From: Victivallales bacterium
GTDB lineage: Bacteria > Verrucomicrobiota > Lentisphaeria > Oligosphaerales > Lenti-02
Length of the DNA: 35,823 bases
Reading direction: 5' to 3'
NCBI GenBank assembly: GCA_003245525.1
Contig: QKCY01000375.1
Span: forward strand, 1 to 35,823
The position numbers and the translations under genes are program-made. The notes under the pieces were generated by a model, which ran no database searches, had not been told where the DNA came from, and was given only the letters and a program-made list of their open reading frames with translations. Shown in pieces: positions 1-6,703 of the stretch. The stretch's first letter is position 1. Each line of letters opens with the position of its first letter.

Positions 1-1
1 G

Positions 2-406
2 GTGGCCAACACCGAGTGCCCGGCGGCCGACACCGAGTGCCCCCTCGACTCGACGGTCTGCCCGCGGACCGTCACCGAGTGCCTCCAGCACCCGACGGTG
101 TGTCCGGTCGAGGAGACAGAGTGTCCGCTGACCGAGACCGCGTGCCCGGCCGTGACCACAGCTTGTCCAGTGACAACCACCTCGTGCCCGGCCGTGGAAA
201 CGCAGTGCCCGGAGGACCACACGGCATGCCCAGGCACCCCAACCGAGTGCTTGCAGCCCTACGACTGGACGGCATGTCCCGAGGTCCCGACGCAGTGCAC
301 GGCCACCGAGTGCTTCATGGGGGTTGCCACCGAATGCCCTGCCGTGCCGACAGAGTGCCCCTTGGTGGAGACAGAGTGCCCTGGAGAGAATTGCCTCCTG
401 TGGTAG
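2..406 (+). CDS. T-x-C-P heptad-repeat cysteine-rich protein (5' end cut off)
   Basis: The reading frame is open from the left edge, so the true start and any signal peptide are missing; the GTG at position 2 is probably internal. The visible 134 residues are almost wholly a seven-residue repeat, T-x-C-P-x-x-x, about 18 copies, with 19 cysteines and a short non-repetitive end, GENCLLW. The frame is supported by synonymous variation: Thr is ACC/ACG/ACA, Cys TGC/TGT and Pro CCC/CCG/CCA between copies, so selection acts on the protein. Spacing is broken at three places (CLQPYDW, TQCTATEC, CFMGVA). Regular Cys every seven residues suggests a disulfide- or metal-linked fibre, solenoid or surface layer; that is inference. 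I do not recognise the family. A membrane-protein gene pair follows 129 bp downstream on the same strand, and the two may be functionally linked. Confidence 0.8.
   Translation: MANTECPAADTECPLDSTVCPRTVTECLQHPTVCPVEETECPLTETACPAVTTACPVTTTSCPAVETQCPEDHTACPGTPTECLQPYDWTACPEVPTQCTATECFMGVATECPAVPTECPLVETECPGENCLLW
11..385 (+). repeat. 21-bp coding tandem repeat (T-x-C-P heptads)
   Basis: Units of 21 bp encode one heptad each, beginning ACN-NNN-TGY-CCN. Copies differ at most third positions and in the last three codons, so this is an old, diverged repeat rather than a recent expansion. Complementary-strand reading gives a GHSV-like repeat, a by-product of the same DNA periodicity. Confidence 0.8.
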
Positions 407-535: not shown

Positions 536-3088
536 ATGGCGGAAGAGAGTACGATTACAGCGGACAGTGTTGGCTCGCCTTGGCGGGCGAGCATCTCCCA
601 GGCATTCGGGCTGCTTCGACGGTGTGCGGGCAGGTCCAGGCAGGTGGCCGCCACCACTGCTCTCCTGTTGGCGCTAGGTTTCGCCTTCGACATGGTTGGC
701 TACGCCCCAGGCTATCTCCGCATCCTGGGCTTTGGCCTGTCGCTGCTGGTTGCCGCCGTGCTGCTGGGCTGCTCCCATCCCAAGAGCGTCATCCTCCTCG
801 CGGCGACCGTCTTCACCTTGGGGAGCAAGGCGTCGCCAGCCGTGCAGCTACCTCTCCTGCTTCTCCTGCACTTGGCGGTCTGGCAGACGGGCGTGCGCGG
901 GCCGTTGCGCCTGTACCCGGCGGTCGCCGTCTACCTCCTGCTGCACCTCTTCCTCTTCTACTCCCCATGGGGCTTCCAGGTACTGGACTGGCTGGCCGTG
1001 CCCGGAAACCGCGCCGCCACCGCTCTCTCGGGGGAAGCGACGCTGACGGCCTACACGTACCAAGGCACGGGGGCAAGCCTCCTCTTCCTCACCATCGCGG
1101 GACTCCAGATCCGCAGCCGCCGCCAGGCAATCGCGTGGAGCGTCTTCGCCTGTATGGGACTTGCAGCCGCCCTGGCCTGGCAGGCCTTCTTCCTGTACCG
1201 CGTCGACTTCGGTACCGACCTCATGTGGAAGTTCGGCTTCCGCACCCCCCTCACCTCGACCGTGCTCCTCAAGCAGCTTGGCGACGCCGCCCACCTGGCC
1301 ACGCCTGCGGTGCCCTTTCTCATCTGGCTCGCTCTTCTCACTCTCTCCCTCATGTTCGTGACGAAGAGCCCCGGTGACGCCAAGCCCAGCGCGCCCACCG
1401 GATCTCCGTCGTCGGCCCCGCCGTCCACCCGGTGGCATGAGCGGCCAGCAATCCGCTGGGGTATCCTGGGCCTTGCGGTCCTCCTCTACCTCGCCAGCGC
1501 CCTGGCGCTGGGCCTTCCCCGACTCCACCTGCCCGTGCGCGGACAGGACGAGATCGTCTTCTGTTCGCGGGGGGTGGTCAGTTTCTCGTTCCCCGGCGAG
1601 AACCAGTTCGGCACGGGCTTGGCCGGGATGTTCGGGAGCCTGCCCATCCTGGCCGAGTCCTTCGGTTTCCCCGCGCGGGTGGTGGATGGGATTCCCGAGG
1701 ATCTGTCTCCCTCGGCCATCCTCGTCATCACCAATCCCGACCAACCACTCCGCGAGGGCGAGTACGACAGGCTATGGGCCCATGTCCGGGCAGGCGGAGG
1801 CCTGTTCCTCCTGGGAGACCACACCTTCATCAAGAACGGCAGGAACCATCTGAACGACCTGCTCGCGCCGACCGCCATCCGTTTCAGGCACGACTCGGCC
1901 CAGTTCTTTCCGCAGGGCTGGTTCGACTGCTATCGCTTCCGGGCCGTAGGCGGCTTCGGGGGACTGAGGGACGACGCCGAGAACGGTACCGGCTTCCTGG
2001 TGGGTGCCTCCCTGGCCACGAGCGCGCCCGCCTTCCCCATCATCGTCGGGCGCTATGGCTACTCGGACTGGGGAACCACCGAGAAGGTCGAGCGGCGCGA
2101 GTATCTGGGCGACTTCGTCCCCCAGCGGTCCGAGCGGCTTGGCGACCTCGTACTGGCGGCCGGGCAGGACGTCGGCCGTGGGCGGGTCCTGGTGTTCGGC
2201 GACACCACGGCCCTTTTCAATGGGAACATCGCGCGAACCTACCCCGTGTTCCGCTCCGCGCTGACCTTCCTGCGGCTCTCCCGGACGACCCCTCTGGGGG
2301 GAAACTGGGGTCTGCTTCTCACCGGGGGGCTGTTCCTGGGCATCTGCGCGCTGGTCATTGCCACTGGTGCGCGGAGTGCAGGCGTGTCTGCCTGCATCCT
2401 CCTGGTCGCGGCCATCCATCCGGCGCTGCCTGGCAGAGCCGAGCGGGAACTGCCACTTCAACCCGACTGGGCTCGCAGCAGGACGGCAGTGGTCGACTAC
2501 TGCCACCACCCGCGCGTGTCCGACCACGGGTCGATGAAGACCGCCCTGTCCGGGCTGAGTATCAATATGCTCCGCAGCAAGCGGGTCCCGCTGCAGATGC
2601 GGCAATGGGATCCATCGCTGCTCGACTGCACCGATCTGCTCGTGATCACGGCCCCGCGCCAGCAGGTGACTACAGCCCAAGTCGACGAACTGATGCGGTT
2701 CATGGAACGCGGCGGACGCCTTGTGGTCGCCTGCGGTCGCCGCGAGTACCCGGCCTGCCGGAACCTGCTCGACCGGCTCGACATATCGGTTGCGGACTTC
2801 CCCTTGGGGCGCACCTTCGAGCCCCAGGCCTGGGGCGAGAAAGTGAGTTTCTTCGAGTCCTGGGCTCTGGAACTGGGACGGAGCCTGGACCAGAGCAACG
2901 TTCTAGCCAGCTACATGGGCCATCCCCTGATGGCCACCGTGGATGTCGGGCTGGGAGGGGCTGTAGTTATCGGCGACAGCCAGTTCCTGCTCAACCAAAA
3001 CCTTGAGATGAAGGGCTCGCACGATCCGCGGAACATCGCGTTCGTCCGGAAGCTGGTGGAATGGAAAGCACCCCCAACAGATCATTGA
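536..3088 (+). CDS. Multi-pass membrane protein, exosortase-like N-terminus plus DUF4350/GATase-like domains (paralogue 1)
   Basis: An 850-residue protein. The ATG follows an AGAGG ribosome site. Residues about 40-280 hold seven or more hydrophobic segments; one stretch (YQGTGASLL, then FFLYRV) lies where an exosortase has its Cys-x-G...S and N-x-x-R-I motifs, but no Cys is present. After a Pro/Ser-rich linker and another membrane segment (about 312-328) comes a periplasmic-type alpha/beta domain with GGGLFLLGDHT (GDHT about 427) and GRGRVLVFGDTT (about 548-558). A further membrane segment near 590-615 is followed by a second, similar domain ending in a GDSQFLLNQN motif. These G-x-G-x-V...GD...N patterns are typical of DUF4350 and ABC-associated GldG-type domains, which share a GATase-like fold. 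It is paralogous to the next gene, overlaps it, and probably forms one complex with it. The biochemical role is unknown. Confidence 0.75.
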   Translation: MAEESTITADSVGSPWRASISQAFGLLRRCAGRSRQVAATTALLLALGFAFDMVGYAPGYLRILGFGLSLLVAAVLLGCSHPKSVILLAATVFTLGSKASPAVQLPLLLLLHLAVWQTGVRGPLRLYPAVAVYLLLHLFLFYSPWGFQVLDWLAVPGNRAATALSGEATLTAYTYQGTGASLLFLTIAGLQIRSRRQAIAWSVFACMGLAAALAWQAFFLYRVDFGTDLMWKFGFRTPLTSTVLLKQLGDAAHLATPAVPFLIWLALLTLSLMFVTKSPGDAKPSAPTGSPSSAPPSTRWHERPAIRWGILGLAVLLYLASALALGLPRLHLPVRGQDEIVFCSRGVVSFSFPGENQFGTGLAGMFGSLPILAESFGFPARVVDGIPEDLSPSAILVITNPDQPLREGEYDRLWAHVRAGGGLFLLGDHTFIKNGRNHLNDLLAPTAIRFRHDSAQFFPQGWFDCYRFRAVGGFGGLRDDAENGTGFLVGASLATSAPAFPIIVGRYGYSDWGTTEKVERREYLGDFVPQRSERLGDLVLAAGQDVGRGRVLVFGDTTALFNGNIARTYPVFRSALTFLRLSRTTPLGGNWGLLLTGGLFLGICALVIATGARSAGVSACILLVAAIHPALPGRAERELPLQPDWARSRTAVVDYCHHPRVSDHGSMKTALSGLSINMLRSKRVPLQMRQWDPSLLDCTDLLVITAPRQQVTTAQVDELMRFMERGGRLVVACGRREYPACRNLLDRLDISVADFPLGRTFEPQAWGEKVSFFESWALELGRSLDQSNVLASYMGHPLMATVDVGLGGAVVIGDSQFLLNQNLEMKGSHDPRNIAFVRKLVEWKAPPTDH

Positions 3089-5436
3089 TGGCCGCCTGTA
3101 TCTCCCTGAAACTCGTGGCTGTCCTGGCATGGCAGGCGGGAGCTCACGCTCCGTCTGCGGTCCTCCTGGCGTTCGGACTCTGGGCCGATGCCCTTCTCCT
3201 GCGCCCCCCAGAGAAGCCACGCGTCCCGTTGAAGACGCTCGCCAGCATTCTGGGCCAAGCGTGCGGGCTAGGTGCACTGGCCCTCGGCGCTGCCTGGGGA
3301 GCGACCAGGCTTGGCGTACTGCTGGCTGTGCGGGCCAAGGGAGGAATCGGCTGCTTTGCCGCCGCCGCGAGGATTCCCCTCTCCTGGATGGGCCTTGATG
3401 TGTGCAGGCTTGGCGGCGACCTCCAGATGAACAGTATGTCTGGAGCTCTGGCCTTCCCGGCGAGCTTCGACCATGTGGGAATGGGCAGCGTGCTCGTCGC
3501 CGCGGCACTTGGATTGGTCTACAGCCTAGCCACCCTCCGGTCCAGGTCGGCATGCGTGAACCAAGCCCTGGCAGTAGCCGTGGTTGCCCTGATCGCCATG
3601 CTGCTGGGCTGGGTCTTGCGGATAGCCCTTTTCCTGGCCTGCTGCAACTTCGTAAGCTATGAGACCGAAGAGCTGCCCATCCTGGTGTTCTACCGGCCCC
3701 TGTTCCGGGACGGGGTCCTTGTACTCCTGTTTGCCGTCCTGGCACAGACCCGGCTGTTTGCCTGGCACGCGGCGCGGCGCGGTGCCCAGGCTGCGCAAGC
3801 ACTCGGCGTCTACCGTCCCTCGCGCCGGGCCGTCGCGGGCCTCTGCGCGCTACAGGTCGCCCTTGTCCTCGGGGCGACGTGGGACCCAGTCGGGCACCGC
3901 AAGTCCGGCACTCTCGCCTTCAGCACCGGGCACACCCGCTGGTCGCGGACAGACCGGCTCTACGACGAGAGCTGGTTCGGCCCGGCATCCGGCTACAACT
4001 ACAACTGCATGAAGCGGTTCTACAAGCTCTACTACGACGTCCGCGAACTGGGCGAGGAGATCACCGCCAAGTCACTGGAGGGGGTCAGTGTTCTCGTCGT
4101 CTACGATCCAGACACACAATTCTCTGATCGCGAGAAGGCGGCGATCAGGACCTTCGTCAAGTCTGGTGGCGGCCTCTTCCTCATCGGGGACCACACCAAT
4201 GTGTTCGGCTCCAGCGCCCATCTGAACGGCCTCTGCCAGGGCATGGGTCTGGCCTTCCGCGACGACGTCCTCTTCGACCAGTGGGAGGACTTCTACCAGC
4301 TCCATGACACCCGCAACGAGGCGACAGGATTCATGGACGATGCGGTCGTGTTCAAGTTCCGCGGGCCAGCCTCGATCCAGCCGCGCTCGTTCCTGACCGA
4401 TACGATCAATCTGGGAAACTCGAAATCCGGTCGGGCCATCTACTCGGTGAACAACTTCTATCCGCCGCCGCACGACGATCCGTCGATGGCGTGTGGGACT
4501 TTCGCGGTCACCGCTTTCAGCCGGTACGGACAGGGGCGTGTCCTTGCCTTCGCCGATAGCACGGTCTTCTCGAACTTCGAGATCTTCTACCCCGGCAAGT
4601 ACGAGTTCCTCCTGAACGTGTCCGAGTGGCTGAACCGCAAGCAGCCAGCGATGTGGGAGACTCTGCGCGGGCTGTGCCTGGTGATGTGCTTCTGCTTCCC
4701 TCTCGCGGTTTTCGTGACCGTGCCCGACCGGCGGGTCACCCTTGCGGTCCTCGCCCTCCTGGTCGCGGCCTTCTTCCCGGCCTCGGAATGGCGGGTCCGG
4801 CACCGGTGCGACAGCAGCCGCTGGCCCGCGCCCCAGCGCCCGGCGCGCTTCGCCTTCGTCGTCACACCGCTCGATGATCCGCGCTTCGCCCTGGCCAAGT
4901 TCGTGCCGGAGGGACAATACAGCGAACGGTTCGATGTCTTCGTGCAGTGGATGTTCCGCCACGACGTGTTCCCTGCTTTTGCCGTGCGGGACTACCCGGA
5001 CAAGCAGGCCTTTGCCAGAGCCCTGCGCTCGGCGCCCGGTGTGGAAACGGCCGTCGTGCTGTGCCTGACCGAGGAGTCCCTGGCGGACTTCCAGGACCAG
5101 CCGAGCGGTACGTGGGACACAGGCAAGCGTTTCCTCGTGCTGCTTTCCGGCGCCTCCACTGACCGGGCCAAGGCCTTCCTCGCAGACCGGGGCGGCGTGC
5201 GGGACGATGCCTGGCAGGAGGACAGCCATGGATGGCTGACCGCAGTGGACGACCAAGGGCGACATTTCGTCATGGTGCCGCACGGTGAGCAGTTCAGCGA
5301 CGCACGCATGGGGTTCTCCGAGAAGGTGGTCCCGACGGACGAACAGCGTGTCTTGTATAGCCTGCAGTACGAACTGCTTGATTTACTCTTCCAGAAAGAG
5401 GGGGAACTTCGCGATGACCGTTCCGGAACAGACTAG
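3061..5436 (+). CDS. Multi-pass membrane protein, exosortase-like N-terminus plus DUF4350/GATase-like domains (paralogue 2)
   Basis: A 791-residue paralogue of the gene before it, overlapping it by 28 bp. The chosen ATG has GGTGGA upstream; a second ATG at 3088 sits in a TGATG overlap but lacks a ribosome site. Residues 1-270 are membrane helices. The stretch MGLDVCRLGGDLQMN, then FDHVGMGSVL, then LGWVLRIAL matches the layout of an exosortase core (beta hairpin, ACSGIRSL, ANALRI), with His in place of the catalytic Cys and the Arg kept. The soluble domain has GGGLFLIGDHTN (GDHT about 376-379) and GQGRVLAFADST (about 492-502), then two helices and a C-terminal alpha/beta domain. Family knowledge suggests ligand or partner binding rather than known catalysis. 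The next gene starts inside its last 23 bp, so the three are translationally coupled. Confidence 0.75.
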   Translation: MESTPNRSLMAACISLKLVAVLAWQAGAHAPSAVLLAFGLWADALLLRPPEKPRVPLKTLASILGQACGLGALALGAAWGATRLGVLLAVRAKGGIGCFAAAARIPLSWMGLDVCRLGGDLQMNSMSGALAFPASFDHVGMGSVLVAAALGLVYSLATLRSRSACVNQALAVAVVALIAMLLGWVLRIALFLACCNFVSYETEELPILVFYRPLFRDGVLVLLFAVLAQTRLFAWHAARRGAQAAQALGVYRPSRRAVAGLCALQVALVLGATWDPVGHRKSGTLAFSTGHTRWSRTDRLYDESWFGPASGYNYNCMKRFYKLYYDVRELGEEITAKSLEGVSVLVVYDPDTQFSDREKAAIRTFVKSGGGLFLIGDHTNVFGSSAHLNGLCQGMGLAFRDDVLFDQWEDFYQLHDTRNEATGFMDDAVVFKFRGPASIQPRSFLTDTINLGNSKSGRAIYSVNNFYPPPHDDPSMACGTFAVTAFSRYGQGRVLAFADSTVFSNFEIFYPGKYEFLLNVSEWLNRKQPAMWETLRGLCLVMCFCFPLAVFVTVPDRRVTLAVLALLVAAFFPASEWRVRHRCDSSRWPAPQRPARFAFVVTPLDDPRFALAKFVPEGQYSERFDVFVQWMFRHDVFPAFAVRDYPDKQAFARALRSAPGVETAVVLCLTEESLADFQDQPSGTWDTGKRFLVLLSGASTDRAKAFLADRGGVRDDAWQEDSHGWLTAVDDQGRHFVMVPHGEQFSDARMGFSEKVVPTDEQRVLYSLQYELLDLLFQKEGELRDDRSGTD

Positions 5437-6703
5437 AGCCGCCGAACGCAGCAGCGACCAGCCAGGCAAGGATACCCGCCAGTGGAAGAACCAGGCCAAG
5501 GTTTTCGTTGCGGTGCTTCTCGGTCCGGCCATCGTCTGGGGAGTGTGGTCGCACCTCTCCGCAGAAGGCGAGATCGCCGCCGAGGGTACCCCCCTCTACG
5601 AGAAGGCGGTGGAGCACTCGGTCGCCCAGTTAGCCAAGGACGACCCGGAAGCACCGCCGTCCGCGCAGGAGAACAAGGACACGACGCCACGGGACCAGGC
5701 GCTCTGGAGCCGGATCGGCGACTTGGTCCAATCCCAGGACCGTCGGGGAAGGGAGCGTAGCTACATCTGGTGGTCGGAGCGACGTGGCGAATTCCTCGTT
5801 ATGCCCCGGCGGACCGCTGAGGACGACGTGCTGGTCTACTGGGACGAGGCAAAGGGACGCCTGACGCGCCACCCTCTCGCCGGGAACACGACAGAGGGGA
5901 AGAAGTGGGCGTTCACGCTCTCCTCCAGACGGGAGAACCTCTACGTCTACTGGGACAAGCAGACGCAGGGAGTGGGGCAATCGGTATGGGATGTGACCCC
6001 CTCCGCAGCCGCAAGCCCAGTGGCAGTGTCACCGGCTATGGCACCGTCTGCGGCGGGCGGATCGCGGCCGGGCTCGATGTACTACCAGGGCCTGCCCCGG
6101 CCGAACCCGGCACCAGCGGCTCGTCCGCAGACAGCTCAGGCACCCGCTAGCCCAGCGGATACCGGCCTGGCCAACCGCGTCAAGCTGCAGTCGCTGCTGG
6201 GCATGACGGCTCCACAGGTGGTTGCCCTCCTTGGCAAGCCCGCAGGCGCGGGCGATTCGCTCGAGGATGCCAGCCGCTTGGACTACTCCGCCCAAGGGCT
6301 GGTCCTGAGCCTTCGGAACGGAGCCGTCCGCATGTGGACGGCGACCAAGGGGTGCAAGCTGCAGACCCTGGAAGGGGTCGGCATCGCGTCGGGCCTGGAG
6401 GCGGTGGCAGGGGCGTACGGCAAGTGGGACCGCCAGGAGGACGTCGAGAAGTGGTTTGCGGGCGACGACCCGAACGTGCTCTACCACCACGCGAAGTACG
6501 AACGCTACAAGCTGAACTACCCCAGCCGTGGCTTGGTCGTGATCTTCGACTCCAAGCGCCAGGCGGAGGTGATCTACGGACAGGCACCCCGCAAGGAAGT
6601 GCTTGGCCCTCTGATCCCCGTGGATAGCCCGGCTGCAGCCAACGCCGTTCCGCAGCAACCCCTGTCCCAGCAGCAGCGGGCCAATGCCCCCGCGATGCCT
6701 TAG
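5414..6703 (+). CDS. Membrane-anchored protein with BamE/SmpA-like C-terminal domain
   Basis: A 429-residue protein; the ATG at 5414 lies inside the previous gene and follows GAGGGGG. One hydrophobic segment near residues 29-47 should anchor it in the inner membrane with the rest outside the cytoplasm. Residues 110-190 form a beta-rich part with two YWD motifs (LVYWDEAKG, LYVYWDKQT), then a Pro/Ala/Ser-rich linker. From about residue 258, LLGMTAPQVVALLGKPAG is the typical start of a BamE/SmpA fold (GMT-x-x-Q-V-x-x-LLG-x-P); a second related half starts near LEGVGIASGLEAV. In other bacteria this fold occurs in outer-membrane assembly lipoproteins; here there is no lipobox. Its last bases overlap the stop of the convergent gene, giving TTAG at 6700-6703. 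Function unknown; probably a partner of the two upstream membrane proteins. Confidence 0.7.
   Translation: MTVPEQTRAAERSSDQPGKDTRQWKNQAKVFVAVLLGPAIVWGVWSHLSAEGEIAAEGTPLYEKAVEHSVAQLAKDDPEAPPSAQENKDTTPRDQALWSRIGDLVQSQDRRGRERSYIWWSERRGEFLVMPRRTAEDDVLVYWDEAKGRLTRHPLAGNTTEGKKWAFTLSSRRENLYVYWDKQTQGVGQSVWDVTPSAAASPVAVSPAMAPSAAGGSRPGSMYYQGLPRPNPAPAARPQTAQAPASPADTGLANRVKLQSLLGMTAPQVVALLGKPAGAGDSLEDASRLDYSAQGLVLSLRNGAVRMWTATKGCKLQTLEGVGIASGLEAVAGAYGKWDRQEDVEKWFAGDDPNVLYHHAKYERYKLNYPSRGLVVIFDSKRQAEVIYGQAPRKEVLGPLIPVDSPAAANAVPQQPLSQQQRANAPAMP

Follow-up and report, generated by a model that had tools for sequence, protein, structure and literature searches.

The window, that is, the whole stretch of 35,823 nucleotides analysed, which is the entire contig C213 of a 6.7 Mb source genome in 607 contigs, shows at its left edge the end of a gene encoding a protein made of T-x-C-P heptads, followed by the genes of two large membrane proteins, named MemA and MemB. 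The order array-MemA-MemB, on one strand, is found in at least 24 genomes with profiles of both MemA and MemB. We lean slightly towards a dedicated three-gene system, in which a secreted scaffold with periodic Cys would be acted on by MemA and MemB and cross-linked in the envelope. What appears to be new is the combination and the heptad ladder family, not the GIFT domain that the membrane proteins contain. The region shows the following features:

2-406, forward strand: C-terminal end of the T-x-C-P heptad protein, with 134 codons and 18 T-x-C units; its last residues are ECPGENCLLW
1-144, forward strand: 144 bases identical to the end of contig C345, where the N-terminus is encoded
Contig C345, L004:1-1613, minus strand: remainder of the heptad gene
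536-3088, forward strand: MemA, 850 amino acids, with an N-terminal polytopic domain, a predicted periplasmic GIFT/GATase1-like domain, a TM hairpin and a second GIFT/DUF4350 domain
644-1516, forward strand: MemA N-terminal TM domain (residues 37-327), with T-F-[A/S]-G aligned to the catalytic Cys of exosortase, by a weak profile match
2309-2434, forward strand: MemA TM hairpin between the two soluble domains, with a positively charged, predicted cytoplasmic loop
2603-3043, forward strand: MemA C-terminal DUF4350 domain (residues 690-836; 58.4 bits, cut-off 30.4)
3061-5436, forward strand: MemB, 791 amino acids, a MemA paralogue, its gene sharing its first 28 bases with the end of the MemA gene
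3916-4620, forward strand: MemB soluble domain 1 (residues 286-520), with the ABC_transp_aux / IFT52 GIFT fold
4669-4791, forward strand: MemB TM hairpin (residues 537-577)

The heptad gene is cut by the left contig edge, and a GTG at position 2 was rejected as its start, being merely this edge. Contig C345, from the same genome, extends the frame of the window upstream beyond the identical bases and encodes an N-terminus with a signal peptide, MRERILVCLLALVALGALVPSLSG, heptads and a (GD)n linker; the signal peptide that the original prediction proposed to look for upstream is therefore present. The joined protein contains 624 amino acids, 81 Cys and 76 T-x-C units, the last being the count in this assembly, where contig breaks inside arrays can under-count repeats. 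Its layout is: signal peptide, two Cys at the new N-terminus, array 1, the linker, array 2 and the tail ENCLLW. Exactly seven residues separate successive T-x-C units in 65 of the 75 intervals, the others being of eight (six intervals), nine (two), five and 43 residues, and a hydroxyl residue is located at position -2 of 76 of the 81 Cys. The mature protein is acidic (78 D+E vs 8 K+R) and no C-terminal TM sorting signal was seen on it. The first unit of an array tends to be a cap heptad without Cys, T-x-[F/R/Y/W...]-P (e.g. L206, L237 and L213); examples are PTIFP, TSRP and TMYP, the last of which follows the GD linker in the window protein.

About 18 heptads with a Cys every seven residues had been described from the window, and the count holds: the 134 residues of 2-406 show 19 Cys, 18 T-x-C and 14 T-x-C-P motifs, and 14 pairs of Cys seven residues apart, where 5000 composition-preserving shuffles average 2.4 and never exceed nine. 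The 624-residue protein shows 65 such pairs; 2000 shuffles gave 10.4 on average and never more than 22. Unrelated viral and bacterial DNA repeats can spell the same T-x-C-P motif, and the gene might likewise be a minisatellite read in frame, with a periodicity belonging to the tandem DNA and not to the protein. However, adjacent heptads share 53% of their bases overall; between them, the Thr and Cys codons are invariant at positions 1 and 2, and the third position differs in 58% (Thr) and 52% (Cys) of cases. In addition, 75 of the 76 heptads of the window protein are distinct, vs one to five kinds of unit in viral and unrelated DNA-repeat controls. The minisatellite reading, to which we give practically no credence, is refuted by this codon pattern. 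Since the first two bases of these codons are fixed while the third varies, selection acts on the protein, as the original prediction had read from the same bases, and the heptad periodicity is neither chance nor a DNA repeat. The T-x-C-P matches of a viral scan were all rejected as minisatellite-like, with no homologue among them, and period-5 or period-7 Cys patterns at G515 (contig C37), G138 (contig C63), G010 and G276 were discounted as DNA repeats.

Relatives were sought in 84,980 species genomes with a pattern of three consecutive T-x-C-P heptads, which gave many loci among the matches listed, and reading in all frames set apart the long arrays with diverse codons from noise due to minisatellites. 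The real arrays among the matches listed belong to Planctomycetota (Phycisphaerae, Sedimentisphaerales, Pirellulales and Brocadiia) and Verrucomicrobiota, and one further array genome among these matches is labelled Deltaproteobacteria (Dive96), a label that may be misnamed. Across 44 array proteins among the matches listed, 2457 of 3042 successive T-x-C intervals are exactly seven and 81% of 3085 heptads contain Cys-Pro. Array lengths range from 100 to 1800 residues, and the heptads inside one protein are mostly distinct, unlike those of DNA-minisatellite controls. The relatives keep the frame and the Cys pattern, with no frameshift, stop or loss of the pattern seen. Most complete array proteins start with a signal-peptide-like segment, and the domains attached to arrays, DUF7901, GEVED, dockerin, LTD and CHRD, are all extracellular types. 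The distribution is sporadic, with arrays in two of 198 genomes of the window's own class, where G138 is the only other array genome, and in 16-17 of 248 genomes of the class of G204 (Phycisphaerae), and the system is therefore dispensable. A short T-x-C-P protein in G201 (L196:9521-10237) ends in a tail resembling cytochrome c, LYASSCSCHGPL, whose haem-type motif is irregular.

The claim that the Cys ladder resembles no known family agrees with searches of Pfam, NCBIfam and PDB with the window array protein, which gave no matching family. The PDB searches with the single sequence and with a heptad profile gave only weak Cys-rich chance matches (granulin-2, E 0.004), and in protein-level searches of 60 relatives with the array all non-self matches are low-complexity noise. 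Three Pfam matches were rejected: TrAA12, which corresponds to the GD linker, and MSG and Fucose_iso_C, which look compositional. YTV proteins of Planctomycetales are found in cell-wall preparations (PF07639; PMC8567305) and, like the arrays, are large secreted Cys-rich repeat proteins of Planctomycetota, but the heptad arrays have another motif, a strict seven-residue pitch and the pairing with MemA/MemB. YTV genes are reported in Planctomycetales only (PMC8567305), whereas arrays are also found in Verrucomicrobiota and in the Phycisphaerae class, and the YTV profile matches neither the window protein nor its N-terminal part at E<=1. A cross-linked fibre, a solenoid or a metal-loaded surface protein had been suggested, with a structure model as the check. 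AlphaFold of 14 heptads gives no fold and no secondary structure (pLDDT 53), and no 14- or 21-residue super-period, the solenoid test, is consistent among the heptads; modelling thus offers no structure in support of a solenoid. No paper describing the array, MemA or MemB was found in the open-access literature.

The ORFs around 21 array loci were compared all-against-all for common neighbours. Besides the arrays, these loci have one large common family, the homologues of window genes 536-3088 and 3061-5436, which split into two groups of orthologues, MemA and MemB, with a distant relationship between them. Array matches almost always adjoin these homologues, as the original prediction had asked, and no further neighbour is common to the 21 loci (25 neighbour families listed). 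The operon genomes are G000 (the source genome), G200, G201, G202, G203, G204, G207, G209, G210, G212, G213, G214, G215, G216, G217, G218, G240, G354, G365, G387, G413, G432, G458 and G578. Most of the genomes with the system are bins from metagenomes. In G387, MemA is beside the array and is cut by the contig end, and this genome is scored as array-only in the co-occurrence count. The pair is divergent from the array in G198 and upstream of it in G206, and the long arrays of G199 and G205 show no adjoining MemA/MemB at the array loci. Directly after MemB, the window contains a gene (5414-6703) encoding a 429-amino-acid protein with one N-terminal TM segment, no family match and no counterpart in the other operons.

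Of 248 genomes sampled evenly across the class of G204, 15 contain MemB and 17 the array, which in one of them was recognised by just one match: 14 genomes have both, three the array only, one MemB only and 230 neither (Fisher p 3.8e-19; 5.7e-12 without six array-selected genomes). The array is present and MemB was not found in G437; MemB is present and the array was not found in G276 and G010, whose assemblies are fragmented. Six of 388 genomes of the window's phylum contain MemB: G000, G138, G578, G010, G515 and G604. The full operon is present in G578, a genome found through MemB and not by its array, and the MemB contig of G010 is too short to tell whether an array adjoins. Array and pair might be neighbours by history alone, an unrelated surface protein beside a GldG/ABC-auxiliary-like pair, since their link is known from sequence and in G138 they are unlinked, on different contigs. 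This explanation is improbable: order, strand and co-occurrence are kept across Planctomycetota and Verrucomicrobiota genomes with differing other neighbours, and among the loci compared neither an ABC ATPase nor a permease is repeatedly found next to the pair. The proposal that the array could be the substrate of the membrane pair is supported at the level of conserved linkage and co-occurrence.

All 15 MemB and 14 MemA members match the Pfam models PF23355, PF09822 and PF14258 (IFT52_GIFT, ABC_transp_aux and DUF4350) at E<=1, the best E values being 5e-14, 1e-14 or 7e-13, and 4e-24, respectively. The structure model of MemB has a pLDDT of 63 and a pTM of 0.64, with core block means near 90 in soluble domain 1, and this domain matches the mouse IFT52 N-domain in Foldseek (E 1.6e-6, TM 0.69 on the target). 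As judged from profiles and model, the soluble domains of MemA and MemB belong to the GIFT superfamily. The hairpin loops show K+R vs D+E counts of 57:8 and 71:14 in the two families. Positively charged loops are cytoplasmic under the positive-inside rule, and because the loop is positive in both families both soluble domains are predicted to be periplasmic. GIFT domains occur in GldG, IFT52 and Wbp1, a subunit of OST; they have been proposed as sugar binders (PMC7226087). MemA and MemB resemble GldG, ABC_transp_aux, DUF4350 and IFT52 proteins in these domains, but differ from the GldG type in the N-terminal polytopic domain, the tandem soluble domains and the paralogous pair. The GldG model TIGR03521 gives at best about 24 bits (E near 1e-5) and does not reach its cut-off of 389.85, and neither MemA nor MemB scores above the cut-off of any NCBIfam model.

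The N-termini were compared by hhalign with exosortases, first with four sequences and then with 29, and the larger set gave a probability of 16% and P 0.0016 for MemA, and a probability of 38% and P 0.0003 for MemB, a homology that is suggestive and not significant. Like the exosortase of exosortase/PEP-CTERM systems (PF09721), the pair is a dedicated membrane partner of secreted proteins and the weak match is in the register of the catalytic motif. However, MemA and MemB lack the catalytic Cys, which is aligned with Phe in MemA and Trp-Glu in MemB, and no Pfam or NCBIfam exosortase model matches either of them. From these comparisons, MemA and MemB are classified as proteins that contain GIFT domains, yet are neither GldG nor an active exosortase. 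The source genome encodes a true exosortase (G000, contig C476, 6028-6822; E 3e-48), and so do about half of 149 genomes of the class.

Two of the MemB genomes of the phylum set, G515 and G604, contain distant MemA/MemB pairs. Directly upstream of the pair, G604 shows an RHS/YD-repeat gene whose C-terminal region is a period-5 ladder, with Ser at position -2 of 35 of 37 Cys. This secreted protein of 1977 amino acids (L377:4000-9930, minus strand) has, following the core, a 35-unit ladder of S-x-C pentads that replaces the usual variable tip. The G604 ladder therefore led to the prediction that G515, whose pair has no adjoining array, holds a period-5 ladder elsewhere. By the period-5 Cys pattern, one was found on contig C39 (L376:6209-7240): 30 S-x-C pentads with mixed Cys codons, preceded by a signal-peptide-like N-terminus. 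The pentad evidence comes from these two genomes, and the G515 search was made after G604 had been seen, the prediction being specific.

With the NCBIfam model NF038108, 'Cys-every-fifth RiPP peptide CefA' (cut-off 30), the G515 pentad protein reaches 40.5 bits, and it has in common with CefA one Cys at constant pitch. This match belongs to the main rival, in which the arrays are RiPP-like substrates: MemA/MemB or another enzyme would link Ser/Thr or a position of the backbone to the Cys next to it, or modify each unit in another way, and the enzyme would set the pitch. This reading fits the hydroxyl residue that precedes nearly every Cys by two positions, in the heptads (window protein) and the pentads alike. 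The heptad arrays, however, differ from CefA in their period of seven, the T-x-C-P motif and their great length as secreted proteins; they have signal peptides and no evident leader peptides, and neither NF038108 nor the other NCBIfam RiPP models match them. A radical SAM maturase, a requirement that is assumed and not contained in NF038108, was looked for near the arrays: no CxxxCx[F/Y/W/H]C frame is present in the loci examined, no radical SAM family is among the 25 neighbour families listed, and no frame with a radical-SAM-type motif is present in the 8 kb examined at the G515 pentad locus. On these grounds RiPP-like modification seems rather unlikely.

In the three-gene system that we prefer, the first gene would encode a secreted scaffold, in which a signal peptide precedes a long T-x-C-P-x-x-x array that offers one thiol per seven residues. 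MemA and MemB would be a paralogous inner-membrane pair, with GIFT-type domains facing the periplasm, which may anchor, assemble or modify the emerging array. Chains would then cross-link in register, as a disulphide zipper, into an extracellular or cell-envelope matrix. Inter-chain disulphides may be the most economical use of the ladder, because a constant pitch matters most for chains that meet in register. The scaffold is probably cross-linked or modified outside the cell. Since a hydroxyl residue is found at -2 in both ladders, it may have a second role, as a site of recognition or of modification, possibly with sugar, by the GIFT side. A more specific and tentative version, which we hold possible rather than probable, is that MemA/MemB combine a pseudo-exosortase core with periplasmic GIFT domains of sugar-binding type, recognise (Ser/Thr)-x-Cys arrays of any pitch, and modify or anchor every unit, giving a regularly thiol-linked or glycosylated envelope polymer of a new class.

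The high thiol density and the frequency of Cys-Pro could also suit metal or haem binding, with an exported ladder that sequesters soft metals or haem and is sensed or loaded by MemA/MemB. We give this explanation little weight: no metal-transport or metal-sensing gene is common to the loci, Pro is not invariant in the heptads, and the pentad arrays are without Cys-Pro altogether.

The cell envelopes of Planctomycetota and Verrucomicrobiota have long been debated. The fixed-pitch thiol ladder defines, across both phyla, a class of protein repeat with a dedicated membrane pair, and the expectation that genomes with distant MemA/MemB carry another ladder, of period 5, has been borne out once. 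Cross-linking, if it takes place, would make the array a natural polymer in register and of tunable pitch; modification, on the other hand, would mean a new modification system. Tandem pairs of T-x-C-P genes are found in G206 (L208:7715-9599) and G205 (L211:2179-12779), the latter with proteins of 1594 and 1799 residues containing 184 and 196 units.
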